This document shows, in pieces, positions 14,779-52,393 of a DNA stretch of 64,000 nt. Numbering within the stretch: the first letter of the stretch is position 1; every line of letters starts with the position of its first letter. Under the pieces are notes generated by a model. It worked only from the letters and a program-made list of their open reading frames with translations. It ran no database searches and had not been told where the DNA came from. Source of the stretch: Microbacteriaceae bacterium VKM Ac-2855 (GTDB lineage: Bacteria > Actinomycetota > Actinomycetes > Actinomycetales > Microbacteriaceae); assembly GCA_013204985.1 (NCBI GenBank), contig JABMLG010000004.1:1-64000 (forward strand). Reading direction: 5' to 3'. The position numbers were made by a program, and so were the translations under genes.

Positions 14779-16110
14779 ATGTCGCTTCGCAGAACATCCC
14801 GCACCTCGCCGACACTCGTGCGGCGTCGCCTCGTCCTCGTCGGCGCATTCGCCCTGACAACCGCCACCGTGCTCACGGGCTGCGGTGCCGGAGGCGGAAC
14901 CGGCGCCGCCGGTGACGGCGACACCCTCACCGTCCTCGTTGAGGCCGGCGGCCACGGCGAGCTGCAGCCCATCGCCGACAAGTTCACCGAAGACACCGGT
15001 ACGAAGATCGACTTCGTCGAGCTGCCCTATGACGGCCTCTACAACCGGCTCAACAGCGAGTTCTCCTCCGGCAGCGTCTCGTTCGACGTGGCCGCGCTCG
15101 ATGCGATCTGGCTGCCCGCCTTCGCCGGCGCCGTCACGCCGCTGGACGATCTCTACACCGACGATGTGAAAGCCGACCTCTTCCCCGCCCTCGTCTCGGA
15201 GGCGAACGTCGACGGCAGCTACGTCGGCCTCCCCGCGTGGACGAACTCCGAGATCCTCTACTACCGGAAGGACCTTTTCGAGGATCCCGCCCAGCAGGCC
15301 GCATTCAAGACGCAGTACGGTTACGATCTGGTCCCGCCGACCACCTGGCAGCAGTACAGCGACGCGGCCGCGTTCTTCACCCAGGACACCAACGGCGACG
15401 GCACCCCCGACATCTACGGCACCGATGTGAAGGGTGCCGTGGAGACCGAGTGGCTGGCCACGCTGTCGCAGACCGGTGAGCAGACGATGGTCACCGATAC
15501 CGACGGAGGCGTCTCGCTCGGCGACGCGGACAGCAAGAAAGCACTCGACTTCTACACCAGCCTGCTCCCCTACGCTCCCCCGGGAGCGGCGCAGCTGGAT
15601 TGGGCCGGGGCGCAGAACCTCTTCAACCAGGGCCAGACCGCGATGATGCGCTTCTGGGCGCACGCCTACCGGCAGATCCCCGCCGACGCGGCCGTCGCCG
15701 GCAACGTCGGTGTCGCGCCGATGATCGGCGGCGACGCCGGCCCGGCCGGACTTCCCGGTGCCTGGTACCTCTCGATCGCGAAGGCGAGCCAGAAGCAGGA
15801 CACGGCGATGGAGTTCCTGAAGTTCGCCTACGACAACAACGAGCTCAGCGCCGACACCAGCCTCGGCCTCGCCGCGCGCATCTCCGTCCTTGAGAAGTAC
15901 CAGGACGTCGCCGGCTACGAGAACTACAAGCCGCTGCTGGACACTCTGAACGCCGCCGCCACGCTCCCGCGCCCCGCGGTACCGGAATGGCAGCAGATCG
16001 TCGACACCGTCCTCGTGCCGATGCTGCAGAAGTCCGTCGAGCCCGGCGCCGACAACCAGCAACTCCTCGACGACGCCAAGAAGCAGGTCGAAGCCCTGGT
16101 GGCCAAGTGA
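14779..16110 (+). CDS. Sugar ABC transporter substrate-binding lipoprotein (fructan locus)
   Basis: A 443-residue family 1 solute-binding lipoprotein. Start ATG 14779 follows GGAG at 14767 by 8 bases. A basic leader and hydrophobic stretch end in VLTGC (Cys35 lipidated). The mature part opens with LTVLVEAGGHGEL and contains YDGLYNRLNSEFSSG and the EILYYRKDLFEDP block typical of oligosaccharide-binding proteins. Being divergent from GH32 and next to two fructotransferase-family genes, it probably binds DFA or short fructo-oligosaccharides. Confidence 0.85.
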   Translation: MSLRRTSRTSPTLVRRRLVLVGAFALTTATVLTGCGAGGGTGAAGDGDTLTVLVEAGGHGELQPIADKFTEDTGTKIDFVELPYDGLYNRLNSEFSSGSVSFDVAALDAIWLPAFAGAVTPLDDLYTDDVKADLFPALVSEANVDGSYVGLPAWTNSEILYYRKDLFEDPAQQAAFKTQYGYDLVPPTTWQQYSDAAAFFTQDTNGDGTPDIYGTDVKGAVETEWLATLSQTGEQTMVTDTDGGVSLGDADSKKALDFYTSLLPYAPPGAAQLDWAGAQNLFNQGQTAMMRFWAHAYRQIPADAAVAGNVGVAPMIGGDAGPAGLPGAWYLSIAKASQKQDTAMEFLKFAYDNNELSADTSLGLAARISVLEKYQDVAGYENYKPLLDTLNAAATLPRPAVPEWQQIVDTVLVPMLQKSVEPGADNQQLLDDAKKQVEALVAK

Positions 16111-23529: not shown

Positions 23530-24459
23530 ATGACCGCCACTGTCGAGCCCGACCTCACCCGCCCGAGCGACACCATCCGCTCGAAGCCCCCTCGCGACGC
23601 CGACGCCGCGATCAAGCGCCCCGTCCGCGGAAGTCGCGGGCGTGGGCGTCGCAGCCGCACGATCGTGATGGTGCTGCTCTCCCTCGCGCTCATCGCGACC
23701 CTCGTGCCGTTCGCCTGGATGTTCCTCGGGTCGGTGAAGACCGAGGCGGAGTTGCGACAGCGACCGCCGACGTGGTGGCCGCAGACCTTCACCTGGGACA
23801 ACTTCGCCGCGTGGTTCGGCCGGCTCGACATCGGCACGTTCTTCCTCAACAGCGTCATCGTCGCCGGCTTCACCGTTCTCGGCACCCTGTTGTTCTGCTC
23901 GATGGTCGGCTACGCCCTCGCCAAGTTGGACTTCCCCGGCAAACGCGCGCTCTTCGTCGTCGTCCTGATCACCCTGATGGTGCCCGGCGTGGTCACCTTC
24001 GTCCCCCTCTTCGTCGTCATCAGCAAGCTCGGCCTCGTCAGCACGTACCCGGCCCTGATCCTGCCCTTCCTGGCCGGCCCACTGGGGGTGTTCCTGATGC
24101 GCCAGTTCATCGGCGAGATCCCGGATTCGTTGATCGAGGCCGCGCGGATCGACGGCGCGAGCGAGGTGCGCATCTTCCTCGGGATCGTGCTGCCGCTGTG
24201 CGGCCCGGCACTCGCCACGCTCGCGATCCTGACCTTCCTGGGCTCCTGGAACAACTTCCTGTGGCCGCTCGTCGTCGCCCAGTCGGAAGACATGTACACA
24301 CTGCCCGTGGCTCTGTCGCTGTACTCGGTCGGGCAGAACGCGACGAACTACGGCGTCCTCCTCGCCGGATCGGTGCTCGTGATCGCACCGGTGCTGCTGC
24401 TCTTCGTGGCACTTCAGAAGTACTTCATCCAGGGCATCGCCGCGACAGGAATCAAATGA
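23530..24459 (+). CDS. Sugar ABC transporter permease (MalG-type)
   Basis: A 309-residue permease with a 45-residue basic leader, six helices and the EAA loop DSLIEAARIDGASEVRIFL. Ends IQGIAATGIK. Its stop overlaps the GH43 ATG (ATGA at 24456-24459), tying import to hydrolysis. Confidence 0.9.
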   Translation: MTATVEPDLTRPSDTIRSKPPRDADAAIKRPVRGSRGRGRRSRTIVMVLLSLALIATLVPFAWMFLGSVKTEAELRQRPPTWWPQTFTWDNFAAWFGRLDIGTFFLNSVIVAGFTVLGTLLFCSMVGYALAKLDFPGKRALFVVVLITLMVPGVVTFVPLFVVISKLGLVSTYPALILPFLAGPLGVFLMRQFIGEIPDSLIEAARIDGASEVRIFLGIVLPLCGPALATLAILTFLGSWNNFLWPLVVAQSEDMYTLPVALSLYSVGQNATNYGVLLAGSVLVIAPVLLLFVALQKYFIQGIAATGIK

Positions 24460-25988
24460 CAACCCTCACCCTCCCCGTCACCGACGACACGACTCCCGCC
24501 CTCATCTCGACGAGCCTGCATCCGATCGTTCCCGGCTTCCACCCGGATCCGACCATCTGCCGCGTCGGCGACGACTATTACCTCGCCAACTCGTCGTTCG
24601 AGTACTCCCCCGGCGTGCCCATCAGACACAGCCGAGACCTCGTGCACTGGGAACTCATCGGCAACGCCCTCGAACGCGCCGACCAGTTCCCGGCCGGACA
24701 CTCCGGGGCGAGCAAGGGCGTCTACGCCCCGACGCTGCGCCACCACAACGGGCGCTTCTGGCTGATCACCACCGACGTCTCCGGAAGCGGCGGCCAGCTC
24801 CTCGTCTCCGCAGAACAGGCATCCGGCCCATGGACGGCCGCCCGCGTCATCCCCGGCCTGCAAGGAATCGACCCCGACCTCGCCTGGACCGACGACGGAC
24901 GCTGCTACGTCACCTATTGCTCGACCGCCGTCGGGCTCACCGGGATCGCCCAAGCGCAGATCGATCTCGACTCCACCGCCGTGCTCACGGATCCGCGACT
25001 GATCTGGAACGGCACCGGACTGGCGTTCCCCGAAGGGCCGCACCTCTACCGCCACGACGGCTGGTGGTACCTCGTGATCGCCGAAGGAGGGACCGAGCGC
25101 GGACACACCGTCTCCGTCGCACGCTCGCGCGACATCGAAGGCCCCTTCACCGCCGCACCGACCAGCCCGCTGCTCAGCCACCGCAGCACCGAACACCCTG
25201 TGCAGAACATCGGACACGCCGACTTCGTCCGCACCGTCGACGGCTCGTGGGCCGTCGTCTACCTCGGGGTGCGCCCGCGCGGGATCACCCCGATGTTCCA
25301 CGTGAACGGGCGCGAGACGTTTCTGGCCGGCGTCGATTGGATCAACGGCTGGCCCACGATCGACGAAGACCGATACAGCAGGGCGCTTCGCCTCACCAGG
25401 TATGTGGACACCTTCGACGCGCCTCGACTGCACCAGCGCTGGATCTCACCCGGCGCCGCCCTCGCCGACATGGCCACGGCGACTCCGGGAACCGGTCTGA
25501 CGTTGCGCCCTGCGCGCGCGGCGAGCGGCGCGATCAGCGCCCTGACCGCCCGGGTGGAGGATCCGTGGTGGTCGTTCGAGATCTCGATGGACACAACAGC
25601 GGGCTCCGCCTCGCTGCTCGTCCGACTCGACGATCGGCACTGGTACGAGCTCCGCGCACAGGACGGATACGCCTGCGCAGTCGCTCGGATCGGAGAGATC
25701 GAGGCGGTGGTCGGTGAAACCGTGACGATCGATGCGTCCAGGACGCGACTGCTCGCCGAAACCGTCGAATCGGAATCCGGCGGCCCGGACGACGTCTTGT
25801 TCTCCGCGATCATCAATGGGTCGAACCAGCCGATCGCTCGAATCGATGGTCGGTACTTGTCGACCGAAGTGGCCGGAGGGTTCACGGGGCGCGTCGTCGG
25901 CATCCGACCGATCGATGGGGTGGTGGCAGTGCATCGCGTCGAATACATCGGATCCGCGACAGTGCCGGAATCCGTCGATCTCGGGTGA
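24456..25988 (+). CDS. GH43 family glycosidase (beta-xylosidase / alpha-L-arabinofuranosidase type)
   Basis: A 510-residue two-domain enzyme. The N-terminal five-bladed propeller carries the GH43 catalytic triad: general base Asp31 in GFHPDPT, the pKa-tuning Asp in GIDPDLAW, and the general acid Glu in FPEGPHLY. The C-terminal third is a beta-sandwich seen in XynB-type GH43 enzymes. No signal peptide, so it hydrolyses oligosaccharides after import. The pattern PGFHPDPTICRVGDDYYLANS is that of GH43 subfamilies rich in beta-xylosidases, but arabinofuranosidase activity is also possible. Confidence 0.88.
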   Translation: MTTLTLPVTDDTTPALISTSLHPIVPGFHPDPTICRVGDDYYLANSSFEYSPGVPIRHSRDLVHWELIGNALERADQFPAGHSGASKGVYAPTLRHHNGRFWLITTDVSGSGGQLLVSAEQASGPWTAARVIPGLQGIDPDLAWTDDGRCYVTYCSTAVGLTGIAQAQIDLDSTAVLTDPRLIWNGTGLAFPEGPHLYRHDGWWYLVIAEGGTERGHTVSVARSRDIEGPFTAAPTSPLLSHRSTEHPVQNIGHADFVRTVDGSWAVVYLGVRPRGITPMFHVNGRETFLAGVDWINGWPTIDEDRYSRALRLTRYVDTFDAPRLHQRWISPGAALADMATATPGTGLTLRPARAASGAISALTARVEDPWWSFEISMDTTAGSASLLVRLDDRHWYELRAQDGYACAVARIGEIEAVVGETVTIDASRTRLLAETVESESGGPDDVLFSAIINGSNQPIARIDGRYLSTEVAGGFTGRVVGIRPIDGVVAVHRVEYIGSATVPESVDLG

Positions 25989-26174: not shown

Positions 26175-26201
26175 TTGGTCAACCGGTTGTCCAACTATGG
26201 T
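26175..26201 (+). promoter_or_regulatory. GntR/FadR-type operator with overlapping -10 element
   Basis: TTGGTCAACCGGTTGTCCAA at 26175-26194, a near-palindrome centred on CCGG, followed at once by TATGGT (26196-26201) as a -10 candidate. A matching site lies at 29616-29634 before the kinase operon. Candidate binder: the FadR-type regulator at 28791-29525. Confidence 0.7.
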
Positions 26202-26231
26202 GGTTGCATCGACTCGAAGGAGAGAAACAGA

Positions 26232-26984
26232 ATGAGCGGACGCCTGAACGGCAAGAACGCCCTCATCACAGGTGCCGGCTCCGGCATCGGCCGGGCCGTC
26301 GCAGAACGATTCGCGCGCGAGGGCGCCCGGGTGGCCTTCTCGGACCGGGACCTCACCGCTGCCCAGGGCGCCGCGGATGGATTCGCCGATGCGGTGGCCG
26401 TCGAGCTCGACATCTCGGACGAGAGCAGCGTCGAGGCGGCCTTCGCCCAGCTCGCCGCCGAGGGCCGCGCGCCCGACGTGGTCGTGGCGAACGCCGGAGT
26501 GCAGCTGTTCGGGCAGGACGCGAAGATCGCCGACCTCGCTCTCGAGACGTGGCGCCGAACGATCGACATCAACCTGACGGGCACGTTCCTGACCGTCAAG
26601 CACGCGGTCCGCGCCATGCTCGGACGCGGCGGCTCCATCGTCCTGACCGGCAGCCCGACGGGCCTGAACGGCGAAGGACAGGACTTCACCGCCTACAGCA
26701 GCTCGAAGGCCGGCATCCACGGCCTCGGCCGCACCGTCGCCGCCGCCTACGCGGGCGAAGGGATCCGCGTCAACACCGTCGTGCCGGGCTACACCGAGAC
26801 ACCGCTGGTCACCGCCATCTCGGGCGACGCCGAGGCGCGCGCCGCGATCGTCTCGCGCATTCCGATCGGCCGGCCGGGATCGGCCGCCGACGTCGAGGGC
26901 ATCATGGTGTACCTCGCCAGCGACGAGTCCTCCTACGCAACCGGCGCGCTCTTCCGCGTCGACGGCGGCATGACCACCCTCTGA
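26232..26984 (+). CDS. SDR family dehydrogenase, candidate D-apiose (or tetritol) dehydrogenase
   Basis: A 250-residue short-chain dehydrogenase, NAD(P)-dependent and cytosolic. Cofactor motif TGAGSGIG (residues about 11-18), NAG near residue 85, catalytic Ser141, Tyr155 and Lys159 (YSSSK). C-terminal DGGMTTL is typical of sugar dehydrogenases of this class. Start ATG 26232 follows AAGGAGAG by 7 bases; an upstream ATG at 26175 lies inside the operator and is rejected. As the first gene of the operon preceding an ApnL-like lactonase it could oxidise D-apiose to apionolactone, a step done by a Gfo/Idh enzyme elsewhere. Confidence 0.8.
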   Translation: MSGRLNGKNALITGAGSGIGRAVAERFAREGARVAFSDRDLTAAQGAADGFADAVAVELDISDESSVEAAFAQLAAEGRAPDVVVANAGVQLFGQDAKIADLALETWRRTIDINLTGTFLTVKHAVRAMLGRGGSIVLTGSPTGLNGEGQDFTAYSSSKAGIHGLGRTVAAAYAGEGIRVNTVVPGYTETPLVTAISGDAEARAAIVSRIPIGRPGSAADVEGIMVYLASDESSYATGALFRVDGGMTTL

Positions 26985-26986
26985 CG

Positions 26987-28777
26987 ATGGCGGAGATCGA
27001 GATCGGGCCGTCGGCTCCGACCGTCCCGGTCGACCTCCTGCTCCCCGGCGAGCGCGGCGAGCAGGAGGTGCGCTGCGGCGCCTGGTCCCTGCGCGCGGCC
27101 GATGGGCGGCTCGACGACATCCGCTTCGACGGGGCTCGGGTCCTCCGAGGAGTCCGGGTCGTGATCCGCGACCGCGACTGGGGCACGTTCGCCACGACGC
27201 GTGCCGACGCTCACGCCGAGGGTGCTGCTCTCGTGGTCGAGGGAACGAGCGAGGCGGACGGCGCGCGCGTCGACTGGACCCTGCGAGCGACGTTCGACGA
27301 TGCGTCCCTCGCGCTCGCACTCGAGGCGCGGGCCGCGACCGCGTTCCTCCGAAATCGTCTCGGCCTGATCGTGCTGCACGGAGTCCAGTCGTTCGGTGCC
27401 CCGCTCGAGGTGCGCCACACCGACGGCGCGATCGAGCGGATCCGATTCCCGGACCGGATCTCGCCGCATCAGCCGGCGCGCGACGTCGCCGGGCTCGCCT
27501 GGACAGCGGACGGTGTCGCCGTCACCGCGGCGTTCGAGGGCGACGTGTTCGAGATGGAGGACCAGCGCAACTGGACGGATGCCTCGTACAAGACCTACTC
27601 GACTCCCCTCGACCGACCGTTCCCGGTGAGTGTCGCGAAGGGCGAGGTCGTACGCCAGAGCCTTGCGCTGACGTGCTCGGGAACGGCGCGGCTGCGCGAC
27701 GAAGCCGCCTCGCCTCCGCGGATCGAGGCGGTCGACGGACGGTTTCCCGAGATCCAGACCGTCGCATCGAGCGCCCCGACCACGCGGCGCCCGGCCGAGC
27801 ACCGACTCCGCGGCGTCGGGCTCCTGGCCGAGATCGATCCACACTGGGCCGGCTGGCGGCGCTCTCTCGCCCGCGTTCTCGAGGAGGCGGACGGGCGGCC
27901 GGTCGACCTGCGGATCGTCGCAACGACTCCCGCCGACGTCGACACGGTGCTCGAGGCTGCGGGCGCAGCACCGCTCGCTCGGCTCGGCGTGTTCGACGCT
28001 CAGCGACATTCCAGCACGCCCGAATTGTCGGCTGCGATCAGGCGAGCCGGCGGCGAACGGGGCATCGAGGTGGTGGGCGGTGTCCGCTCGCACTTCACCG
28101 AACTCAACCGCGGCTCCCGCGAGCTCGCCGACGCCGATGCGGCGCTCGCCTTCAGCCTCACCCCGTTCATGCACGACACGTCCGGGCACCAGCTCGTGGA
28201 GTCGCTCGCCGTGCAGCGGACCGTTCTCCGGGACGCACTCGCGATCGCCCGCGGGCGTCGACTGCACGTCGGCCCGGTCACGCTCGGTGCGCGGATGAAC
28301 GCCGTCGCGACCACACCGCTCGCCCCGGGAGGCCCGGACGTCGACGCTTCCGGTTACGGTCCGGAGCACGTGCCCGGGGCGACGGATGCTCGACAAGCTT
28401 CGCCCTCGCTCGCCGCGTGGGTGGTCGGGAGTCTCGCAGCCCTCGCGCGACCGGGCGTGGACTCCGTGACGTATTTCGAGGAGTGGGGCCCGCGCGGTGC
28501 GGTCGGCACACCCGCCGGGCGCGTCCTGGAATGGGCGGCGGAGCTGAGCGGCGACACGCTCCTCGCGGTCCACAGCGATGCACTCGTCGGAGTGGGCGTG
28601 GTCCGACGGGAGCAGCAGGTGCTCCTTCTCGGCAATGCCGGCGGCGCCGTGATCGAGCCCTCGGTGGACGGCGTGCGCGACTGGCTCCGCTCCGGCGACG
28701 GCAGCCGCGGAGAGGGGCCACTCCGGCTCGGGCCCGGCGAGGCCGCTCGCGTCGTGCGCGACACTCGGCCCGAGTGA
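26987..28777 (+). CDS. apnL: ApnL-like D-apionate lactonase candidate
   Basis: A 596-residue protein with no signal peptide and no common enzyme motif. The N-terminal half has long beta stretches; recognisable points are RDWGTF (residue about 63), RNRLGLIVLHG, SPHQPARD and the block FEMEDQRNWTDASYKTY near residue 195. The C-terminal half looks TIM-barrel-like (VGPVTLGARMN, YFEEWGPRG). I match these to ApnL, the lactonase that opens D-apionolactone in oxidative D-apiose catabolism, from memory of family patterns and because ApnO-, OiaC-, LerI- and RpiB-like genes follow. It starts 2 bases after the SDR stop. Confidence 0.55.
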   Translation: MAEIEIGPSAPTVPVDLLLPGERGEQEVRCGAWSLRAADGRLDDIRFDGARVLRGVRVVIRDRDWGTFATTRADAHAEGAALVVEGTSEADGARVDWTLRATFDDASLALALEARAATAFLRNRLGLIVLHGVQSFGAPLEVRHTDGAIERIRFPDRISPHQPARDVAGLAWTADGVAVTAAFEGDVFEMEDQRNWTDASYKTYSTPLDRPFPVSVAKGEVVRQSLALTCSGTARLRDEAASPPRIEAVDGRFPEIQTVASSAPTTRRPAEHRLRGVGLLAEIDPHWAGWRRSLARVLEEADGRPVDLRIVATTPADVDTVLEAAGAAPLARLGVFDAQRHSSTPELSAAIRRAGGERGIEVVGGVRSHFTELNRGSRELADADAALAFSLTPFMHDTSGHQLVESLAVQRTVLRDALAIARGRRLHVGPVTLGARMNAVATTPLAPGGPDVDASGYGPEHVPGATDARQASPSLAAWVVGSLAALARPGVDSVTYFEEWGPRGAVGTPAGRVLEWAAELSGDTLLAVHSDALVGVGVVRREQQVLLLGNAGGAVIEPSVDGVRDWLRSGDGSRGEGPLRLGPGEAARVVRDTRPE

Positions 28778-28790
28778 GGCGGCGCTCCGA

Positions 28791-29525
28791 TCAGCTCCCC
28801 GACTCCGCCAGCCGGCGCGAGGCGGTGCTCATGTGCGCTTCCATCGCGCGAGCCGCGGCCGCCGGATCGCGCGCGGCGAGCGCCTCCAGCACCGCGCGGT
28901 GCTCGGTGAACGCGTCGAGCGCTTGCTGGGGGCTGCTCAGCGCCCTCTCGACCCAGACGCGCAGGAGTGAGCGGATGGTCTGCAGCAGGTCGCGCAGGAC
29001 CGTGTTGCCGCAGCTGAGCGCGATCTGCAGGTGGAACCGCACGTCCGCCTCCACGAAGGCCGCCATGTCGTCGAGGTGCGACTCCATCGCGCTCAGGTGA
29101 CCGCGCAGTTTCTCGAGGTCGACGTCGTCGATCCGCAGCGCCGCCAGCATCGCGGCCTGGACCTCGAGACCGCTGCGCACCTCGATCAGCTCGGCCGTTC
29201 GGCCGGCCGAGAGCATCAGGCCCCAGCTCAGCGTCGTCGGCAGGAGCTCGGAGGTGTTGTCGCGCAGGTAGGTACCCGAACCGGGACGAACCGTGACGAT
29301 ACCGAGGATCTCGAGAGCGGCGAGGGCCTCACGGACCGCCGAACGACCGACCCCGAGGCTGCCGGCGAGCTGGCGCTCGGGAGGCAACCGCGAGCCGGGA
29401 GCGAGGTCGCCGGAGGTCAGGAGGGAGGTGAGCTGCTTGGCCACCTCGGCGACCGCCGTGCCGCGAGGGACCGCTTGCAACTCCAGGCGCACGAGGGACG
29501 CGTCGTCTTCGGGATACGCCGGCAT
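28791..29525 (-). CDS. GntR family (FadR subfamily) regulator
   Basis: A 244-residue repressor on the opposite strand. N-terminal winged helix (GSRLPPERQLAGSLGVGRS, then AVREALAALEILG and VRPGSGTYL), C-terminal all-helical FCD domain with the metal/effector residues of that fold (Asp in EADVRFHLQIA and His at EHRAVLEAL, AHMSTAS). It lies between the SDR/lactonase operon and the kinase operon, and converges on the first. Operators of matching sequence precede both operons, and a weaker copy (CTCAACCGTTGACAGG, 29575-29590) lies before its own start. Confidence 0.85.
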   Translation of the reverse strand: MPAYPEDDASLVRLELQAVPRGTAVAEVAKQLTSLLTSGDLAPGSRLPPERQLAGSLGVGRSAVREALAALEILGIVTVRPGSGTYLRDNTSELLPTTLSWGLMLSAGRTAELIEVRSGLEVQAAMLAALRIDDVDLEKLRGHLSAMESHLDDMAAFVEADVRFHLQIALSCGNTVLRDLLQTIRSLLRVWVERALSSPQQALDAFTEHRAVLEALAARDPAAAARAMEAHMSTASRRLAESGS

Positions 29526-29615
29526 GGAATGACCGTAGCAACGCCTGGGGCCCGCCGTGACACCGAGTCGATTCTCAACCGTTGACAGGCCGTCCGGAAA
29601 GGTTCATGATCAAAC

Positions 29616-29634
29616 CGGTCAACCGGTTATCCAA
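29616..29634 (+). promoter_or_regulatory. GntR/FadR-type operator before the kinase operon
   Basis: CGGTCAACCGGTTATCCAA, matching the operator at 26175-26194 in 16 of 17 positions of the stretch GTCAACCGGTTNTCCAA. Located 50 bases upstream of the DAK-type kinase. Confidence 0.7.
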
Positions 29635-29683
29635 TTGCCGATCGACTTGCTCGACCCACCGACACGACGAGAAAGACCTCGAC

Positions 29684-31432
29684 ATGACCCGGCTCTACAA
29701 CGACCCGTCCGATTTCGCCGACGAGATGGTCGACGGTTTCGTCGCCGCGAACCGGCGCTTCGTGCGCCGCGTGACGGGTGGCGTGGTGCGCGCGACGGCG
29801 AGCGCACCCGGCACCGTCGCGCTGGTGGTCGGCGGCGGCTCCGGCCACTACCCCGCCTTCGGCGGCCTGGTCGGCCAGGGGCTGGCGCACGGCGCGGCGA
29901 TGGGCAATCTCTTCGCGTCGCCGTCCGCCCAGCAGGTGCACTCGGTCGCGAAGGCCGCCGAGCACGGCGGCGGCGTGCTGCTCAGCTACGGGAACTACGC
30001 CGGAGACGTGCTCAATTTCGACGCCGCCCAGCGACGCCTCCGCGAGGAGGGCCTCGACGTGCGCACGGTGAGAGTCACCGACGACATCTCGAGCGCCGAT
30101 GTCGGCGAGAAGCACAAGCGCCGCGGCATCGCGGGGGACCTGACGGTGTTCAAGGTCGTCGGAGCCGCCGCGGAGGAGGGCGCCTCACTCGATGAGATCG
30201 AGCGCATCGCGATCCTCGCGAACGAACGCACCCGCTCCTTCGGCGTGGCGTTCTCGGGCTGCTCGCTGCCCGGCGCCCCGGAGCCGCTCTTCACCGTGCC
30301 CGAGGGTCGGATGGCGGTCGGGATGGGCATCCACGGCGAGCCCGGAATCCGAGAGGACGATGTGCCCACCGCGGACGGCCTGGCCGAGCTGCTCGTCGAT
30401 TCCCTCCTCGCCGAGCGCCCGGAGGCGGTGGCCGGCCCTGAGGGCGCCCGCCTGGTCGTGATCCTGAACGGCCTCGGCTCGGTGAAGTACGAGGAGCTGT
30501 TCGTGGTCTTCTCCGGCATCGAGCGCCGTCTGCGGGAGCTCGGCGTGGAGATCGTCGAGCCGGAAGTCGGCGAACTCGTCACGAGCTTCGATATGGCCGG
30601 CGTCTCCCTCACCTTCTTCTGGGTCGACGAGGAATTGGAGCGCCTCTGGTCGGCTCCGGTCGACGCCCCCGCCTACCGCAAGGGCGCCGTGCTCCTCGCC
30701 GAGCGGACGGAGACGATCGCCGATGAGGAGTCGCGGCCCGCCGCGATCCCGGCGGCGAGCGCCGATTCACGCGACGCCGCACGCACCGTGATCAGCGCCC
30801 TCGAGGCCGTGCAGCGCGTGATCGACGAGAACGCCGACGAGCTCGGCCGGATCGACGCGGTCGCCGGCGACGGCGACCACGGCATCGGCATGCAGCGCGG
30901 GGTGCACGCCGCCGTCGCCGCAGCGCGAGCGGTGTGCTCGTCGGGAGCCGGAGCGGGCACCGTTCTCGACACCGCCGGGGACGCCTGGTCCGACCGCGCC
31001 GGTGGCACCTCCGGAGCCCTCTGGGGCGCCGCTCTCGGCGCCCTGGGAGCGGCGCTCGGCGACGAGGAACGGCCCACCGCCCAGACGGTGCTCGCCGGAG
31101 TCGACGGCGCCCGCACGGCGATCCTCGCTTTCGGCGCCACGCCCGGCGACAAGACCATGGTCGATTCGCTCGTGCCCTTCGCCGACGTGCTCGGCGAGCG
31201 GATCTCCGCGAGCGACTCCCTCACCGTGGCCTGGACCCGTGCGGCGGAGGCGTGCACGGACGCGGCCGCTGCCACGGCGCAGCTACTGCCGCAGATCGGC
31301 CGGGCCCGACCGCACGCCGAGAAGAGCCTCGGCACCCCCGACGCCGGCGCGCACTCGCTCGCCCTGATCGTCACGGCCGTCGGCGAGGTGCTGCGCGAGA
31401 GCGAGTCCGCCCCGACCGGCCCCGGCGCGTGA
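29684..31432 (+). CDS. DAK-type kinase (DhaK-DhaL fusion), candidate L-erythrulose kinase
   Basis: A 582-residue single-chain ATP-dependent kinase. DhaK domain (1-330): [15 protein letters not shown] and the substrate-binding His217 in GMGIHGEPG, which forms a hemiaminal with the ketose. DhaL domain (about 370-575): [15 protein letters not shown], the Mg-ATP binding Asp cluster. Fused DAK enzymes phosphorylate dihydroxyacetone or tetruloses; beside LerI-like and RpiB genes the best guess is L-erythrulose to its 1-phosphate (LerK). Start ATG 29684 was chosen as first Met aligned with the family ([11 protein letters not shown]); the RBS is weak (GAAAGACC). Confidence 0.8.
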
Positions 31433-31476
31433 CGCCGCCCCCACTCGACCCGTCATCCGACACCAAGGAGAACATC

Positions 31477-31980
31477 ATGAGCGCACCCTTCCGCATCGTC
31501 GTCGGCGCCGACGACGCCGGCTTCGGCTACAAGGAGACCGTCAAGGCCGATCTGGAGAAGGACTTCCGCGTGGCGAGCGTCGTCGACGTGGGTGTGGACG
31601 CCGAGTCGCACACGCCGTACCCGAGTGTCGCGATCGCCGCCGCCGAGATGATCGCGCGCGGCGAGGCCGACCGCGCCGTGCTCATTTGCGGCACCGGCCT
31701 GGGCGTCGCGATCGCGGCGAACAAGGTGCCCGGTATCCGCGCCGTCACCGCGCACGACTCCTTCTCTGTGGAGCGCTCGATCCTGTCGAACGACGCCCAG
31801 GTGCTGTGCATGGGCCAGCGCGTCGTGGGCATCGAGCTGGCCCGCCGCCTGGCGAAGGAGTGGTTGGGCTACGAGTTCGACACGACCTCCGCATCCGCCG
31901 ACAAGGTGCAGATCATCGAGTCGTACGAGGAGGGTCGGCCCACGGAGGCGGCGGCCGCCTCCTCTCCGGCGTCGTGCTGA
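31477..31980 (+). CDS. rpiB: RpiB/LacAB-type sugar-phosphate isomerase
   Basis: A 167-residue isomerase of the RpiB fold. Motifs: [12 protein letters not shown] at the N-terminus (phosphate/substrate binding), catalytic Cys71 in [15 protein letters not shown], and [22 protein letters not shown] at 31465 precedes ATG 31477. In tetrulose pathways an RpiB paralogue (EryI) turns D-erythrulose 4-phosphate into D-erythrose 4-phosphate, which enters the pentose phosphate pathway; its neighbours favour that role over ribose 5-phosphate. The Ala/Ser C-terminal tail overlaps the next start. Confidence 0.85.
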
Positions 31981-32768
31981 GCGCCACCTCCGCGCCCGCC
32001 TTCACCGTGGGCGTGAGCCTGAAGATGTACTTCGGGCACGGGCGGACTCTGGAGTGGAGTCGGAGTGTCGCGCAGATCGCCCGGACCCACCTGGCGGTCA
32101 CGTCGGGTCTCGTCGAATTGTTCGTCGTGCCGACGTTCCCTGCTCTCGTTCCGGTGGCGTCCCTCGTCTCCTCTGCGGGGATCGCTCTCGGAGCCCAGGA
32201 CGTGTTCTGGGAGGACGAGGGCGCGTACACCGGCGAGGTGAGCGCCTCCGAGCTCCGCGAGGTCGGCTGCCGGCTGGTCGAGATCGGCCACGCCGAGCGG
32301 CGCGCGCTCTTCGGCGACGACGACGAGCGGATCCGGCTGAAAGTGGCCGCGGCCTTCCGCAACGACCTCGTTCCGCTGCTCTGCGTCGGCGAGGCGCAGC
32401 GCGGCTCGATCGAGGAGGCGGTCACCTTCGTGCTCGCGCAGATCTCGTCGGCGCTCGAGGCGGCCGACGCCGCGGGCTCGACGGGGCCGGTGCTCGCGGC
32501 GTACGAGCCCGTCTGGGCGATCGGCGCTCTGCAGCCGGCAGAGCCGGCCTTCATCGCCGGAGTCGTCACCGCGCTCCAGGATGCGCTCGCCACTCTCCCC
32601 GGGCGCTCGGGCAGCCGCGTGATCTACGGCGGTAGCGCCGGGCCCGGTCTGCTGACCGCGCTCCAGGGCCGGGTGCCCGGGCTCTTCCTCGGCCGCTTCG
32701 CCCACGACCCCGAGGCCGTCCGCGCGATCCTCGACGAGGCGCTCGCGCTCGCGGGGGCCCGACGGTGA
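31974..32768 (+). CDS. TPI-like isomerase, candidate L-erythrulose 1-phosphate isomerase (LerI)
   Basis: A 264-residue TIM-barrel isomerase homologous to triosephosphate isomerase. Active-site Lys17 (GVSLKMYF), His106 (IGHAERR) and Glu178 (YEPVWAIG) are present, and YGGSAGPG binds phosphate. The usual Asn two positions before the Lys is Ser15. The divergent N-terminal motif and the operon point to LerI rather than a glycolytic TPI. Start is GTG 31974, overlapping the RpiB stop by 7 bases; no better start exists before the first strand. Confidence 0.75.
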
Positions 32769-33589
32769 GCGCGCGCATCGGCCTGAGCAGCTACGCGTTC
32801 TTCTGGCGCTCCTCCGACCGCGTGCCCGAGCCGATGGGCGTCGAGGACATGGTTCGAGAGACTGCGGCGCTGGGGGTGGATCTCCTTCAGCTCTGCGATG
32901 TGCCGGAACTCGAGGAATTCGCCCCCGAGCGGCTCGCGTCCCTCCGCGGCCTCGCCGCGAGCGAGGGCGTCGCGCTCGAGCTCGGCACGCGCGGCACCGA
33001 CCCCGCGCACCTGCGTCGCTGGATCGAACTCGCCCATGCACTCGACGCGGTGCTGCTGCGCAGCATGTGGACGTCGGGTGAGGACCGGCCTGATAGCGCG
33101 GAGACGCTGCGCCGGCTCAGGGTCATCGCGCCGGAGCTCGAGGAGGCGGGGATCACCCTCGCTCTGGAGACCTACGAGCAGGTGACGACGGGCGAACTCG
33201 TCGACGTCATCGCCACGCTGGATCATCCACGCATCCGCATCTGTCTCGACCCCGCCAACACCGTCGCCAACCTCGAGCTGCCAGCCGACGTCACCGCGCT
33301 CTGCGCACCGTACGTCGCCAACTGGCACGTCAAGGACTTCGACTTCAGCCGCAACCCGGGCTGGGTCGGCTTCGTCTACACCGGCACCGCGCTCGGCGAC
33401 GGCCGCCTCGACTACGACGGCATACGCGAGTTCCTGGATCCCGCAGCCCGCGGCATCACCCAGATCATCGAGTTCTGGCTCCCCTGGCAGGACAGCGTTC
33501 CCGCCTCGGAACAGGCACTCGTCACCACCCGGCTGGAAGCCGAGTGGACCACCACCACTCTCGAACACCTGAGGAGAAGGAACCCATGA
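32765..33589 (+). CDS. Sugar phosphate isomerase/epimerase family protein, OiaC-like decarboxylase candidate
   Basis: A 274-residue xylose-isomerase-like TIM barrel. Metal-site features: Glu in LALETYEQ, Asp in ICLDPANTVAN, His in NWHVKDFDF, Glu in IIEFWLPW. The element GFVYTGTALGDGRLDYDGI is typical of this fold. GTG 32765 overlaps the previous stop. In the apionate route a protein of this superfamily (OiaC) decarboxylates 3-oxo-isoapionate to L-erythrulose, which would supply the kinase in this operon. Without a tree the general isomerase/epimerase label is safer. Confidence 0.65.
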   Translation: MSARIGLSSYAFFWRSSDRVPEPMGVEDMVRETAALGVDLLQLCDVPELEEFAPERLASLRGLAASEGVALELGTRGTDPAHLRRWIELAHALDAVLLRSMWTSGEDRPDSAETLRRLRVIAPELEEAGITLALETYEQVTTGELVDVIATLDHPRIRICLDPANTVANLELPADVTALCAPYVANWHVKDFDFSRNPGWVGFVYTGTALGDGRLDYDGIREFLDPAARGITQIIEFWLPWQDSVPASEQALVTTRLEAEWTTTTLEHLRRRNP

Positions 33590-34473
33590 CCGACACCACC
33601 ACCGCCATGTCGGGCACCGCCGCCCCCGCTCTCACCGTCGCCGTCATCGGCGCCGGCGGCAAGATGGGGATGCGGGTGTCGAACAACCTGCAGAAGTCCG
33701 ACTACAACGCGCTCTACAGCGAGGCCTCACCGGCCGGCCAGGAGCGCACCCGCGAGGCGGGTCGCGAGATCACGGCGACCCCTGAAGCGGTCGCGGACGC
33801 CGACGTCGTGATCCTCGCGGTGCCGGACGTCGTGCTCGGCGCGGTGTCGGAGGACGTGATCCCGCAGATGAAGTCGGGGGCGATCATCCTGACCCTCGAC
33901 CCGGCCGCCGCCTACGCCGGCCTGCTCGCGAAGCGCGACGACATCCACTACGCGGTCGCCCACCCGTGCCACCCGTCGGTGTTCCTCGAGCGCACCACCC
34001 CGGAGGAGTGGGCCGACACGTTCGGCGGCATCGCCGCACCCCAGGAGGTCGTCGCGGCCCTCGAATACGGCGACGACGACGTGCGCGCGATCGCCGAGAA
34101 GGTCATCTCGACCATCTACGCGCCCGTGATCGCCGTGCACTGGGTCACGGTCAAGCAGCTCGCCGTGCTCGAACCGACGCTCGTCGAGACGATCGCCTGC
34201 ATGATCGGCGAGTTCCTCAAGGAGGCCCTGGAGGAGACCGTCAACGGCGTCGGAGTGCCCTACGAGGCGGCCCGCGCCATGCTCTACGGCCACACCTGGA
34301 TCGCTCTGACCAACGGGCTGCGCGGCTCCAACCCCTTCTCGGAGGCCTGCCACATCGCCATGGGTTACGGCCGCGAGGCGCTCATCAAAGACGACTGGAA
34401 GAAGATCTTCGACGACTCCGAGCTCGACTCGGTCATCGCCAAGATGCTGAAGATCGACGCCATCAAGCGCTGA
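33586..34473 (+). CDS. apnO: ApnO-like D-apionate oxidoisomerase candidate (6PGDH-like)
   Basis: A 295-residue NAD-dependent enzyme with an N-terminal Rossmann motif VAVIGAGGKMG (residues 18-28) and an all-helical C-terminal domain as in phosphogluconate dehydrogenase-like proteins. Distinctive stretches are TLDPAAAYAGLLAKRDDI, VAHPCHPSVF and FGGIAAPQE. These match my recollection of ApnO, which converts D-apionate to 3-oxo-isoapionate, and the operon supplies the later steps. RBS GGAGAAGGA; ATG 33586 overlaps the upstream stop. Last gene of the operon, followed by a hairpin terminator. Confidence 0.65.
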   Translation: MTDTTTAMSGTAAPALTVAVIGAGGKMGMRVSNNLQKSDYNALYSEASPAGQERTREAGREITATPEAVADADVVILAVPDVVLGAVSEDVIPQMKSGAIILTLDPAAAYAGLLAKRDDIHYAVAHPCHPSVFLERTTPEEWADTFGGIAAPQEVVAALEYGDDDVRAIAEKVISTIYAPVIAVHWVTVKQLAVLEPTLVETIACMIGEFLKEALEETVNGVGVPYEAARAMLYGHTWIALTNGLRGSNPFSEACHIAMGYGREALIKDDWKKIFDDSELDSVIAKMLKIDAIKR

Positions 34474-34484
34474 CCGAAGCAGCT

Positions 34485-34519
34485 GTCCCGGAGTGCCGAC
34501 GTCGTCGGGACTCCGGGAC
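34485..34519 (+). terminator. Hairpin terminator after the apiose-type operon
   Basis: GTCCCGGAGT (34485-34494), then CCGAC / GTCGG around a GTC loop, then ACTCCGGGAC (34510-34519): a 16-bp stem with one internal mismatch, starting 12 bases after the stop. Only a short T-rich stretch follows. Confidence 0.75.
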
Positions 34520-46093: not shown

Positions 46094-48430
46094 TCATCCG
46101 CGCCCGATCGGGTTCGCGCGGAGTTCCGCCAGGCGTGCCAGCAGACGCTCGCCCAGCACGGGGAACGGCAGCTTGGACGCGGCCATCGGCAGGATGGTGC
46201 GAAGCGGCATGGGGAGCACGAGCGGCAGGGTCGCTTCGTCGAACTCGCCCGCCCCCTGGGTCGCGAACTGGGTCATCATCTCCTGAAGGGCGACCGCACC
46301 CTCGGCGTCGGCGAACCAGTCCCCCATGGCGGAGTCGAGGGTCAGAGGCGGCGCGGGCTCGGTGCCCGCGAGTTCGATACCGACTTCGGCGCGGATGTCG
46401 CGCGATGAGGCTCCGGCCTGGATCGTGTACGTGCCGTCGGCGCGCACCCATTGGCGAGAGCGGCTGCTCCAGTAGTCCAGGTCGCCGAGCGGGATCCTCG
46501 TGGTGACCGTGACGCTCTCGCCGGCCGCGACCTCGACCTTCTCGAAGCCGACGAGCTCGTGCGACGGCCGGTCCTCCCCCGACGTCGGTGGGACGGAGTA
46601 GAACTGCACGATCTCCGCGCCGTCTCTGGATCCCGTATTGGTGACGTGAACGTGGACCTGCAGGGCCTCCTCGACGACGTCGACGCTGAGGCGGTCGTAG
46701 TCGAAACTCGTGTAGGACAGGCCGTGGCCGAAGGGGTAGGCGAGGTCGCGGCCGACCGAGTCGAAGTGGCGATACCCCACGTAGATCCGTTCGCCGTAGA
46801 GCACGGTCTGACCGTTCCCGGGGAAGTTGTGGAACGAGGAGGTATCGGAGAGCGCGAGGGGGATGGTTTCGGCGAGCTTGCCCGAGGGGTTCGCGTCACC
46901 GAAGAGAAGGGAGGCCGTCGCCGTGCCTGCGGCCTGGCCGGCCAGCCACATCTCGAGGATGGCGGACACTCCCGCCCGCCATGGCTCGACCGACACCACT
47001 CCCCCGTTCGAGAGGACCACGGTGACGCGATCATTGACCGCCGTGACCTGCTCCAGCAGTGACAACTGGTCGGCGGGCAGGTCCATCGTGGTGCGGTCGA
47101 ACGCCTCGGACTCGTCTTCGGGCGGGAGGCCGAGGAAGACGACGACGTCGGACGCCGAGCGAGCCGCGGAGACCGCCCGCTCGATCAACTCGACGTCTTC
47201 GTGGCCGTCGAGCGTGAATCCCGGTTCGAAAAGCACCGGACGGTCGCCGGCGCGTTCTCGGATCGCGTCGAGGGCGGTGTCGAGGCGGGTGGGCACGATG
47301 TGACTGCTCCCCGCGCCCTGGTAGCGGGGAGTGCGAGCGAATTCCCCGATGACAGCGAGACTTCCGCGGTCGCGGGTGGAGAGCGGAAGGACTCCCTCGT
47401 TCTTGAGGAGCACCGCCGAGCGCTCGGCGATCTCCCGAGCGAGCGCGTGATGCGTGTCGACGTCGAAGGCAGGCACGTCGCCGGTGCGTTCTCCGACGAT
47501 GGTGGCGGCGAGTTCAGCCACACGGGACGCTGCCCGATCGAGGATGTCTTCCTCGAGGACTCCGGTCTGCACGGCCTCGATCAGGGCGGCGGATCCCGCT
47601 CCGGTGCCCGGCATATCGAGGTCGAGGCCTGCCCGCACCGCGGCGACGACATCGGATGCGGCCGCTCCCCAGTCGGAGACGACGACGCCGTCGAAGCCCC
47701 ACTCGTCACGAAGGATCGCCGTCAGCAGCCACGCGTTGGCGATGACGGGCACTCCGTTGACGGCGTTGTAGGAGGCCATGATCGTGGCAGGCGACGAGCC
47801 TTCGACGACCCGTTGGAACGCCCGCAGGTAGATCTCCCGCAGAGTTCGCTCGTCCACCTCCGCGCTGATGCTCATGCGGTCGGTCTCCTGATCGTTCGCC
47901 ACGTAGTGCTTGACCGATGCCCCGACTCCCCGGGTCTTGAGGCCTCGCACCCAGGCAGCGCCGAGCTCGCCGGACAGGAAGGGGTCCTCGGAGAAGTACT
48001 CGAAGTTCCGCCCGCAGAGCGGGCTGCGCTTGATGTTCACTCCGGGACCGAGCAGAACGTCGACTCCCAGGCTTCGCGCTTCTTCCCCGAGCGCGACGCC
48101 CAGGGTGGAGAGCAGGTCCCGATCCCACGAACTGGCCGTCGCGGATGCCGTCGGGTAGGCAGTCGATGCTCTGGCGGCGTTGATGCCCAGATGGTCGGCA
48201 CCCTGCTCCTGCCGGCGCACCCCGTGGGGACCATCCGACAGGGTCACGGCCGGCACACCGGCCGACTCGACCGCGGTGGTGTTCCAGAAGGCGAAACCGG
48301 ATACCAGGGACGCTTTCTCCTCGAGGCTCATGCCCTCGATCAGCGGGTAGGTGCTCAATGTGTGGATCTCCTCTGACGAGTCCTGCAACAGTTCGTCCTG
48401 TCGCACGGCGGGGGACGTGGGCGACGTCAT
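46094..48430 (-). CDS. GH3 family beta-glycosidase
   Basis: A 778-residue glycosidase with the three-domain GH3 layout: TIM barrel, alpha/beta sandwich and a fibronectin type III domain (HVHVTNTGSRDGAEIVQFY, DYWSSRSRQWV). Nucleophile Asp253 in VVVSDWGAA; KHYVANDQETDR and FEYFSEDPFLSG line the site. No signal peptide, so it acts inside the cell. ATG 48430 overlaps the stop of the SDR (ATGA), so both are co-translated from an MFS-SDR-GH3 operon. Likely a beta-glucosidase on an imported glycoside. About 70 residues beyond the usual C-terminus are present. Confidence 0.88.
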   Translation of the reverse strand: MTSPTSPAVRQDELLQDSSEEIHTLSTYPLIEGMSLEEKASLVSGFAFWNTTAVESAGVPAVTLSDGPHGVRRQEQGADHLGINAARASTAYPTASATASSWDRDLLSTLGVALGEEARSLGVDVLLGPGVNIKRSPLCGRNFEYFSEDPFLSGELGAAWVRGLKTRGVGASVKHYVANDQETDRMSISAEVDERTLREIYLRAFQRVVEGSSPATIMASYNAVNGVPVIANAWLLTAILRDEWGFDGVVVSDWGAAASDVVAAVRAGLDLDMPGTGAGSAALIEAVQTGVLEEDILDRAASRVAELAATIVGERTGDVPAFDVDTHHALAREIAERSAVLLKNEGVLPLSTRDRGSLAVIGEFARTPRYQGAGSSHIVPTRLDTALDAIRERAGDRPVLFEPGFTLDGHEDVELIERAVSAARSASDVVVFLGLPPEDESEAFDRTTMDLPADQLSLLEQVTAVNDRVTVVLSNGGVVSVEPWRAGVSAILEMWLAGQAAGTATASLLFGDANPSGKLAETIPLALSDTSSFHNFPGNGQTVLYGERIYVGYRHFDSVGRDLAYPFGHGLSYTSFDYDRLSVDVVEEALQVHVHVTNTGSRDGAEIVQFYSVPPTSGEDRPSHELVGFEKVEVAAGESVTVTTRIPLGDLDYWSSRSRQWVRADGTYTIQAGASSRDIRAEVGIELAGTEPAPPLTLDSAMGDWFADAEGAVALQEMMTQFATQGAGEFDEATLPLVLPMPLRTILPMAASKLPFPVLGERLLARLAELRANPIGRG

Positions 48431-49167
48431 GAAATGGCTCGGGCCAGGCCGGCGCTCTCTCCGCCGTCGGCGACGAACTCCGAACCGGTGGAGAACGACG
48501 CCTCGTCGCTGGCGAGGAAGACCACGAGCTTGGCGATCTCGCTCATCTCGCCCATGCGATGGAGGGCGACGTGGTCTTGGGGGAACTCCATGCCCTGAAG
48601 GAGCGGGGTGCGGATGAGGCCCGGATGCACGGTGTTCACTCGAACGTTGTAGGGGCCGAGATCGAGGGCCGCGCTCTTGGTGAGCCCGCGGAGACCGAAC
48701 TTCGAGGCGTTGTAGCCCGTGATCCCCCCGTATCCCTGGAGGCCCGCGTCGGAGGAGATGTTGATGATCGATCCGCGCCCGGACGCTTTCAGGGCCGCCG
48801 CCGCCGCTCGGATCCCGTAGAAAGAACCCGTCAAATTGATGTCGATGACCAGGTTCCAGTCCTCGGGTGTGTGCTCGTCGATCGGGGCCCTTCGCACCAC
48901 CCCGGCATTGTTGACCAGGATGTCGAGGCGGCCGAAAGCCCGCTCGGTCTCCGCCACCGCGGCGACCCACTCGTCGTAGCTCCGGACGTCGAGATGCGCA
49001 TAGCGCGCTCTCTCCCCGATCTCCTCCGCGAGCTGTCGACCGTCGTCGTCGAGCACATCCCCGATGACGACCGAGGCCCCCTCGGCGGCCAGGGCTCGCG
49101 CGAACTCGGCCCCGAGACCCCGGGCTGCCCCGGAGATGAGTGCAACTTTGTCGGTAAGACGGTTCAT
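48427..49167 (-). CDS. SDR family oxidoreductase
   Basis: A 246-residue classical short-chain dehydrogenase: cofactor motif SGAARGLG (residues 11-18), NNAG near 86, catalytic Ser about 139 and Tyr152/Lys156 (YNASK). Sequence style is close to 3-oxoacyl-ACP reductase and hydroxysteroid dehydrogenase-like SDRs. In an operon with an MFS transporter and GH3, it may oxidise the sugar or the released aglycone. Substrate unknown. Confidence 0.85.
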   Translation of the reverse strand: MNRLTDKVALISGAARGLGAEFARALAAEGASVVIGDVLDDDGRQLAEEIGERARYAHLDVRSYDEWVAAVAETERAFGRLDILVNNAGVVRRAPIDEHTPEDWNLVIDINLTGSFYGIRAAAAALKASGRGSIINISSDAGLQGYGGITGYNASKFGLRGLTKSAALDLGPYNVRVNTVHPGLIRTPLLQGMEFPQDHVALHRMGEMSEIAKLVVFLASDEASFSTGSEFVADGGESAGLARAIS

Positions 49168-49231
49168 AGCTGATGACTCGCTTTCTTGTCGTTCATGGTG
49201 TGAGTGATCGCACGCGTGCGCGAATGCCCGC

Positions 49232-50638: not shown

Positions 50639-50652
50639 CGACTGGTTGAAAC

Positions 50653-50680
50653 TTGCGCCTCTGCGCAACATTGGGCAATG
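50653..50680. promoter_or_regulatory. Two inverted repeats in the MFS/TetR divergent region
   Basis: TTGCGC-CTCT-GCGCAA at 50653-50668 and CATTG-GG-CAATG at 50669-50680, side by side in the 87-base gap. Likely TetR operators controlling the MFS-SDR-GH3 operon and the regulator itself. Confidence 0.55.
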
Positions 50681-50725
50681 TAGCGAAAATCGCGGAGCAG
50701 CGCAAGGTTCAGGTACGGTGATGGC

Positions 50726-52056: not shown

Positions 52057-52103
52057 CCGCACATTCTCTCCTGACGGCGCACTCACGGCTCACTCGCACC
52101 GAT

Positions 52104-52120
52104 CGTGCACTGAGTGCACG
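52104..52120. promoter_or_regulatory. 17-bp palindrome, TetR-type operator
   Basis: CGTGCACTGAGTGCACG, symmetric around a central G, 48 bases from the TetR start and 73 from the ferredoxin start. Confidence 0.7.
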
Positions 52121-52192
52121 TAAGGTGTCAGAGTCTGAACCGAACGGTCCGAGGCGCGATGCCATTCGGACCCATCACGTTACGAGGTGTTC

Positions 52193-52393
52193 ATGCTCGT
52201 CGTCGTCGACCTCAACCGCTGTCAGTCCTACGGGCAGTGCGTCTTCGCCGCGCCGGAAGTCTTCCGAATGGATCACAACGAGACCGTGGAGTGGACGTAC
52301 AGTCCCGATGCCTCCGAAGAGGATCGCGTCGTCCGGGCATTCCACGCCTGCCCCGTTCAGGCCATCACGCTCACCACGGATGGACACCAGTGA
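52193..52393 (+). CDS. Ferredoxin, [3Fe-4S] type
   Basis: A 66-residue acidic ferredoxin with Cys10, Cys16 and Cys53 (RCQSYGQC, then ACPVQAI). The three-Cys spacing C-X5-C...C-P is that of actinobacterial [3Fe-4S] ferredoxins that feed electrons to cytochromes P450. RBS GAGG 5 bases before ATG 52193. Its stop overlaps the GTG of the reductase. Confidence 0.9.
   Translation: MLVVVDLNRCQSYGQCVFAAPEVFRMDHNETVEWTYSPDASEEDRVVRAFHACPVQAITLTTDGHQ

Follow-up and report, generated by a model that had tools for sequence, protein, structure and literature searches.

A putative two-unit regulon for oxidative D-apiose catabolism in a Microbacteriaceae bacterium, probably entered through a short-chain dehydrogenase

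Introduction

Apiose is a rare branched plant sugar, which cross-links the pectin rhamnogalacturonan II and decorates many plant glycosides. A stretch of 64,000 nucleotides (64 kb) from Microbacteriaceae bacterium VKM Ac-2855 (GenBank assembly GCA_013204985.1, contig JABMLG010000004.1, positions 1 to 64,000; hereafter the window) raises the question of whether the oxidation of D-apiose may begin with a short-chain dehydrogenase/reductase (SDR). Eight intact genes are found there within 26232-34473, encoding in this order the SDR, an ApnL-like protein, a GntR/FCD regulator, a DAK-family kinase, an RpiB-family and a TIM-family isomerase, an OiaC-like protein and an ApnO-like protein (Table 1); all eight open frames are present in the order given by a preliminary description of this DNA. 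The D-apiose pathways published by Carter et al. in 2018 reportedly start with ApsD, a dehydrogenase of the Gfo/Idh family, and, past apionolactone, are said to reach D-erythrose 4-phosphate by way of ApnL, ApnO, OiaC, LerK, LerI and DerI; to our knowledge they include no SDR.

We are fairly confident that the cluster is a regulon of two units that serves the oxidative catabolism of D-apiose, in which the SDR would act as the first enzyme in place of ApsD. The proposal is based on gene content, gene order, orthology, co-occurrence and a shared site, from which we infer the reactions, the cofactor, the binding of the regulator and the inducer. An oxidative D-apiose pathway with an SDR instead of a Gfo/Idh dehydrogenase had already been put forward in the preliminary description, and it gains support from the gene order of Rhizobium etli, from the co-occurrence of the SDR with ApnL and from the rarity of ApsD-like relatives.

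Results

Proposed pathway and organisation of the cluster

In the proposed pathway the SDR would oxidise D-apiose at C1, presumably with NAD+, to D-apionolactone, which the ApnL-like protein would convert to D-apionate. ApnO would then form 3-oxo-isoapionate, and OiaC, a named enzyme of the published apiose set, would decarboxylate it to L-erythrulose. Phosphorylation by the DAK kinase would give L-erythrulose 1-phosphate, and the TIM- and RpiB-family isomerases would carry it through D-erythrulose 4-phosphate to D-erythrose 4-phosphate and into the pentose phosphate pathway, with the GntR/FCD protein acting at GGTCAACCGGTT before both units.

The SDR gene likely starts at the ATG at 26232, a TTG being present upstream at 26175, and the ApnL-like gene begins only 2 bases past its end. 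The genes from DAK to ApnO (29684-34473) form a run divergent from the regulator gene, in which the ends overlap or nearly abut and the DAK-RpiB gap is 44 bases. Rathayibacter sp. Leaf185 is the nearest named relative among the matches listed, with other Microbacteriaceae next; identity to Leaf185 is 89% for the SDR, 84% for DAK and 96% for ApnO, against 58-59% for ApnL, which diverges faster than its neighbours.

Co-occurrence of the dehydrogenase with ApnL

We compared 80 loci, the best 80 of 568 relatives, so that the sample leans to near kin; several of them are cut by contig ends. By record title 66 were counted as actinomycete and the other 14 (L067 and L069-L081) were left out; one of these, Rubrobacter L071 (its contig is 6 kb long), is an actinobacterium too. 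The SDR (at least 55% identity) is encoded in 57 of the 66 actinomycete loci, and in 55 of these 57 within 400 bp of ApnL. It occurs together with all five back-half enzymes (DAK, RpiB, TIM, OiaC and ApnO) in 36 of the 66, and at the thresholds used the SDR-ApnL pair is found with none of the other five in 11 of the 66, a threshold-dependent number (for example, L046 has a DAK relative of 54% identity, the limit being 55%).

A second sample comprised 299 genomes of the family, searched at a single threshold for each protein (1e-40 for ApnL, 1e-80 for the SDR, 1e-60 for ApnO and 1e-30 for ApsD) with only the best 4, 9, 8 and 7 first-look candidates per genome scored, respectively. The SDR was found in 47 genomes and ApnL in 50: both are present in 46, the SDR only in 1, ApnL only in 4 and neither in 248. 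Genomes with both span 25 genera, the co-occurrence gives 3e-48 in a Fisher test, which ignores kinship, and the two matches are at most 400 bp apart in 38 of the 46. ApnO is found in 61 of the 299 genomes, 13 of which have no ApnL match, and in 12 of the 13 an SDR match is missing as well; thus the SDR tracks the lactonase and not the tetrose half. The thirteenth, G036, which is also the sole SDR-only genome, has at the same locus an ApnL that is divergent (29% identical to that of R. etli), and this stretch of 20 kb also encodes an ApnO (47%), a GntR protein and ribose-type ABC proteins.

The distribution of the SDR with ApnL therefore fits a lactone-making enzyme and not one acting on erythrulose or on tetritols. 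Erythritol and threitol are likewise degraded with DAK, TIM-like and RpiB-like enzymes, which lends something to the idea of a cluster for the breakdown of a tetritol or a tetrose, with the SDR as a tetritol dehydrogenase; we know of no role there for ApnL, ApnO or OiaC, and the idea has no place for ApnL and ApnO. Since, in addition, the SDR does not track the tetrose genes, being paired with ApnL alone in the 11 loci and missing from the 12 ApnO genomes mentioned above, we rejected this explanation as hardly credible. An excerpt of PMC12780249 describes the tetritol routes as running via erythrulose phosphates.

The SDR protein

The residues D38, N114, S141, Y155 and K159 are near-invariant in the SDR (at least 97% in 58 sequences), as are T13, G14, G18, I19 and G20; the protein contains the TGxxxGIG sequence and the Asn-Ser-Tyr-Lys tetrad, the classical SDR motifs. 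Its orthologs in the family genomes are 63-90% identical to one another as a group, whereas the remaining SDRs encoded in its own genome reach 32-40%, the best-scoring of them being 36% identical and the closest in identity 40%. Naming a substrate through sequence matches in the PDB was abandoned, the 688 matches being too many and too generic. Pentose-oxidising SDRs that yield lactones are on record in Herbaspirillum huttiense, according to an excerpt of PMC6336799; these aldose 1-dehydrogenases share the superfamily and the reaction type (aldose to lactone) proposed here, yet they act on other pentoses, and the likeness is one of description and not of sequence.

The Gfo/Idh alternative

None of the eight cluster genes encodes a Gfo/Idh protein. 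The cluster could nevertheless serve apiose with its first step performed by a Gfo/Idh enzyme encoded elsewhere, the SDR being a reductase or acting on another sugar: a classical SDR fold says little on the substrate, and the genome itself holds 22 Gfo/Idh matches to R. etli ApsD at E<=0.001. The best of these, on contig C22, is however only 32% identical over residues 4-275 of 344 (E 1.6e-19); relatives of R. etli ApsD at E<=1e-30 occur in just 3 of the 299 genomes, against 50 with ApnL, and the one of the three that has ApnL also has the SDR. With the SDR following ApnL and not ApnO, we judge this alternative unlikely.

Among the 80 loci, close relatives of the R. etli and Martelella ApsD (35-42% over most of the length) are present only in L067, L072 and L081, none of which is titled actinomycete or has the SDR. 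Weak relatives (24-27%) occur in L075 and L020, and a rough motif scan for Gfo/Idh across the frames of all 80 loci had a single hit, in L020.

The SDR is missing from nine of the 66 actinomycete ApnL loci, and four of these nine genomes carry it elsewhere, with 66-74% identity. In two of the four, Microbacterium aurantiacum and M. oxydans, it adjoins a glycoside hydrolase (GH) 52% identical to the window protein encoded at 59385-61232, beyond which lie a rhamnosidase and a GH43 protein. In Frondihabitans it adjoins a nucleoside-hydrolase-like gene, with the operator core described below 96 bp upstream of the pair. In the fourth genome it appears to lie beside a second ApnL (37%), because the coordinates are equal across searches, which we read as one and the same genome. 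These relocated sites would speak of apiose release and lactone formation. As for a hidden substitute at the SDR-less loci, Pfam showed no Gfo/Idh match for ten open frames surrounding ApnL, and an extended-SDR/epimerase neighbour (c15) was set aside, being found at 8 loci, 5 of which also have the SDR, and belonging to no informative family. The L068 genome has an ApsD-like match of 30% (E 5e-27).

Two further observations concern enzymes near the SDR or ApnL. A nucleoside-hydrolase-like PF01156 protein (L104:8586-9548, minus strand) adjoins the SDR, and the same protein cluster occurs in L047, L056, L057, L060, L061 and L065, the family assignment coming from two members scanned in Pfam; since apiose is a furanose, this protein could be an apiofuranosidase. 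In Rubrobacter a zinc-type alcohol dehydrogenase (PF08240/PF00107; L071:3088-4185), possibly another apiose dehydrogenase, is encoded downstream of ApnL.

The ApnL-like protein

The preliminary description had placed the 26987 protein with ApnL. This is borne out by its homology to R. etli ApnL (30% identity over 531 positions, E 3e-49) and by the elements FEMEDQ, ELNR, H396 and D467 common to both, though not at the level of the curated ApnL model NF049900, on which the window protein scores 198.3 bits (E 2.1e-58) against a cut-off of 750, while R. etli ApnL passes with 1049.7 bits. ELNR is kept in 36 of 39 ApnL relatives, and Glu372 and Glu498 are each kept in 38 of the 39 aligned; R. etli and Martelella have Ala at position 498. 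No PDB chain was matched by sequence at E<=1. In the predicted model the C-terminal half is like clan GH-A, the listed fold-comparison rows covering residues 241-595, and the N-terminal part may be mutarotase-like, to judge from Foldseek rows that print no ranges, this region being barely covered by the fold comparison.

Such a protein might instead be an intracellular glycosidase that releases apiose, the lactone then opening spontaneously. We regard this as very unlikely: the R. etli ApnL that passes the model is homologous over most of its length and has the same four elements, and E498 is also found in L081, at a locus with ApsD-like, ApnO, OiaX and OiaK homologues.

Around ApnL in five other loci (L074 and L076-L079; Poribacteria, Sphaerobacteraceae and Caldilineaceae metagenome-assembled genomes) we observed a cluster of HpcH/HpaI aldolase-like proteins, of which the L076 member was scanned. 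The gene lies directly upstream of ApnL in four of the five and suggests a further downstream route.

Enzymes of the tetrose half

The back half of the cluster is known chemistry. The DAK protein, with its two domains Dak1 and Dak2, passes NF011049 (735.7 bits, cut-off 492), L-erythrulose being its putative substrate, and it is 62-63% identical to the Pantoea and Erwinia DAK encoded near OiaC and ApnO. The RpiB protein scores 203.3 bits on TIGR02133, above the cut-off of 168.2. The TIM-family isomerase is 51-52% identical to its Erwinia and Pantoea counterparts and 38% to a gene product of the R. etli apiose cluster, and lies below the cut-offs of the triosephosphate isomerase models shown (at best 188.8 against 293). 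The OiaC-like protein is 46% identical to the product of an Erwinia and Pantoea gene sited between TIM and ApnO; this Erwinia counterpart matches just two epimerase models, far under the cut-off.

The ApnO-like protein matches PF16896 (PGDH_C) with 198.2 bits and PDB entry 5t57 with E 3.3e-67. As the preliminary description had supposed, the 33586 protein groups with ApnO: its identity is 65-67% to the Erwinia and Pantoea proteins and 39% to the ApnO-like one of R. etli. A small ApnO tree places R. etli in a clade (support 1.000) with L067, L070, L072, L081 and a divergent actinobacterial copy from L054, and leaves outside it the window protein, the enterobacterial pair and the remaining actinobacterial proteins. 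Decarboxylation before phosphorylation had been taken for a variant of the published routes, a view that is not supported: the order DAK-TIM-OiaC-ApnO already stands on Erwinia and Pantoea plasmids, and decarboxylation first is no novelty because ApnO, OiaC, LerK, LerI and DerI are established names in the literature.

Regulator and operator-like sites

Exact copies of GGTCAACCGGTT occur twice in the window, once upstream of the SDR gene and once in the gap that separates the regulator gene from DAK, and allowing up to one mismatch there are 3 matches against 0.13 expected. A 10-base core of this operator, sought on either strand of the 66 loci (1.3 Mb), gave 93 sites, 74 of them at most 350 bp upstream of a cluster gene and the other 19 elsewhere. 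Counted by loci, the cluster gene nearest to a core site is that for the regulator in 35, the SDR in 15, ApnL in 6, DAK in 6 and OiaC in 1. The GntR/FCD protein is a putative repressor of both transcription units and probably binds GGTCAACCGGTT.

Surroundings of the cluster

Upstream of the SDR, the genes for an ABC importer and a GH43 protein end 243 bp before the SDR start. The only two PF13204 genes of the genome are both in the window, 21-27 kb downstream of the cluster, and PF13204 genes recur near ApnL at other loci (a protein cluster of 12, one member of which was scanned). They belong to a polysaccharide-degradation region at 46094-62554, mainly on the minus strand and about 12-28 kb downstream of the cluster, with two GH3 proteins, an MFS transporter, the two apiosidase-like GHs and a LacI regulator. 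Amid the sugar genes, a ferredoxin-reductase-like gene is followed by one for a cytochrome P450 (52114-55043). The sole tRNA call in the window is a tRNA-Val (aac) at 14877-14977 on the minus strand, of an unusual length of 101 bases.

Table 1. Features of the window discussed in the text, with proposed functions where applicable.
Feature	Positions	Strand	Basis
Classical SDR, proposed D-apiose 1-dehydrogenase	26232-26984	+	PF13561/PF00106; ortholog group
ApnL-like, proposed D-apionolactone hydrolase	26987-28777	+	NF049900 198.3 bits; 30% to R. etli ApnL
GntR-family regulator with FCD domain	28791-29525	-	PF00392, PF07729
DAK-family kinase, proposed L-erythrulose 1-kinase (LerK-like)	29684-31432	+	NF011049; Dak1 + Dak2
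RpiB-family isomerase, proposed D-erythrulose 4-phosphate isomerase (DerI-like)	31477-31980	+	TIGR02133
TIM-family isomerase, proposed L-erythrulose 1-phosphate isomerase (LerI-like)	~31974-32768 (start approximate)	+	PF00121
OiaC-like TIM barrel, proposed 3-oxo-isoapionate decarboxylase	32765-33589	+	PF01261; neighbours TIM and ApnO
ApnO-like, proposed D-apionate oxidoisomerase	33586-34473	+	PF16896; PDB 5t57 match
Operator-like site upstream of SDR, GGTCAACCGGTT with overlapping one-mismatch match on opposite strand	26177-26192		pattern scan
Operator-like site GGTCAACCGGTT between regulator and DAK	29617-29628	+	pattern scan
GH43, possible neighbour function	24456-25988	+	homologues 39-40% near relocated SDRs, two genomes
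Apiosidase-like GH, possible free-apiose source	55096-56862	-	PF13204 35.0 bits, cut-off 26.5; DUF5060, DUF5605
Apiosidase-like GH	59385-61232	-	PF13204 39.2 bits, cut-off 26.5; DUF5060, DUF5605

Discussion

The probable new point of the present study is that the SDR would be a non-orthologous replacement of the rhizobial ApsD, spread over actinomycetes. Furthermore, we lean towards regarding it as a second, unrelated family of D-apiose 1-dehydrogenases, replacing ApsD in actinomycetes (25 genera in the one family sampled). A single GntR operator, GGTCAACCGGTT, would tie it to the lactonase and the OiaC branch, and in some genomes also to apiosidase-like, rhamnosidase and nucleoside-hydrolase-like enzymes, so that the family would possess a regulon for using the apiose of pectin or of apiosides. 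If this is true, apiose use in these actinobacteria could be annotated from one marker pair, the SDR and ApnL; it is missed at present because the lactonase falls far under its cut-off and the dehydrogenase is labelled merely as an SDR. It would also be a clean case of non-orthologous replacement at the entry of a pathway.

Several observations weigh against the proposal, among them the low score of the ApnL-like protein on NF049900 and the 22 Gfo/Idh matches of the genome. Four of the 50 ApnL genomes (G066, G067, G238 and G278) have no SDR match and two (G039 and G082) no ApnO match; five of the nine genomes with SDR-less loci have no SDR at E<=1e-60, and Jiangella, which is SDR-less, has an ApsD-like match (36%, E 2e-49) with an internal stop. 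The RpiB protein reaches 143.7 bits on the rhizobial DerI model NF051858, below its cut-off of 240, the OiaC-like protein matches no NCBIfam family at E<=0.001, and the Erwinia and Pantoea counterparts of the latter carry generic annotation only. In three loci of the same genus the ABC importer and the GH43 gene are not beside the SDR. The PF13204 scores are modest and the label does not imply GH140 activity, and one of the two homologues beside relocated SDRs misses PF13204.

The distance of ApnL and of the RpiB protein from their curated cut-offs, together with the faster change of ApnL, could also point to another branched or furanose sugar, or to an apiose derivative, as the substrate of a similarly built paralogous pathway. 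This seems to us quite improbable, since the ApnL-like protein retains the signature residues of its R. etli counterpart, apiosidase-like genes are present in the window and homologues of one of them stand beside two relocated SDRs.

Comparison with known systems

Among the titles and abstract openings listed from the open-licence literature, we found no SDR named as a D-apiose dehydrogenase. For the apiose cluster of E. coli ST131, an excerpt of PMC13001218 reports growth on D-apiose and a hypothesis that oxidoreductases replace the usual first enzyme; the enzyme replaced there is an isomerase, and the cluster is likened to the window by description and not by its genes. According to an excerpt of PMC11747546, a Rhodobacteraceae strain grows on D-apiose and has an oxidative cluster that includes a gene for EC 1.1.1.420.

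On p42f of R. etli CFN 42 the order is OiaX, a four-carbon acid sugar kinase, TIM, RpiB, the ApnO-like protein, a ribose-type ABC importer, Gfo/Idh, ApnL, DhaK and DhaL. This cluster has in common with the window the lactonase, the oxidoisomerase, the TIM and RpiB proteins and the DAK kinase, with a dehydrogenase directly before the lactonase: the Gfo/Idh gene overlaps ApnL by 4 bases, and Martelella has a Gfo/Idh-ApnL pair likewise. It differs in that a Gfo/Idh protein takes the place of the SDR, OiaX with an acid sugar kinase takes that of OiaC, and the ABC importer lies inside the cluster; its ApnO and ApnL are only 39% and 30% identical to those of the window.

The Erwinia and Pantoea plasmids carry an MFS importer followed by DAK-TIM-OiaC-ApnO, with RpiB nearby. 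They resemble the window in having DAK, TIM, the OiaC-like protein and ApnO in the same order with 46-67% identity, and their ApnO stands on the same side as that of the window at the sole fully supported deep split of the tree. In contrast to the window, the 20.8 kb covered on each plasmid contain no annotated ApnL or SDR, and these clusters are presumably apionate-fed for that reason. In the family sample, 12 of the 299 genomes likewise have ApnO with neither an ApnL nor an SDR match and are probable users of apionate rather than of apiose.

Compared with the pathways of Carter et al. 2018, the proposed chemistry after apionolactone is the same and the first enzyme differs, being reportedly ApsD there and probably the SDR here. 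From the gene orders of R. etli, Erwinia and Pantoea, the window looks like a combination of the enterobacterial back half with a front half where the SDR occupies the position of the Gfo/Idh dehydrogenase.

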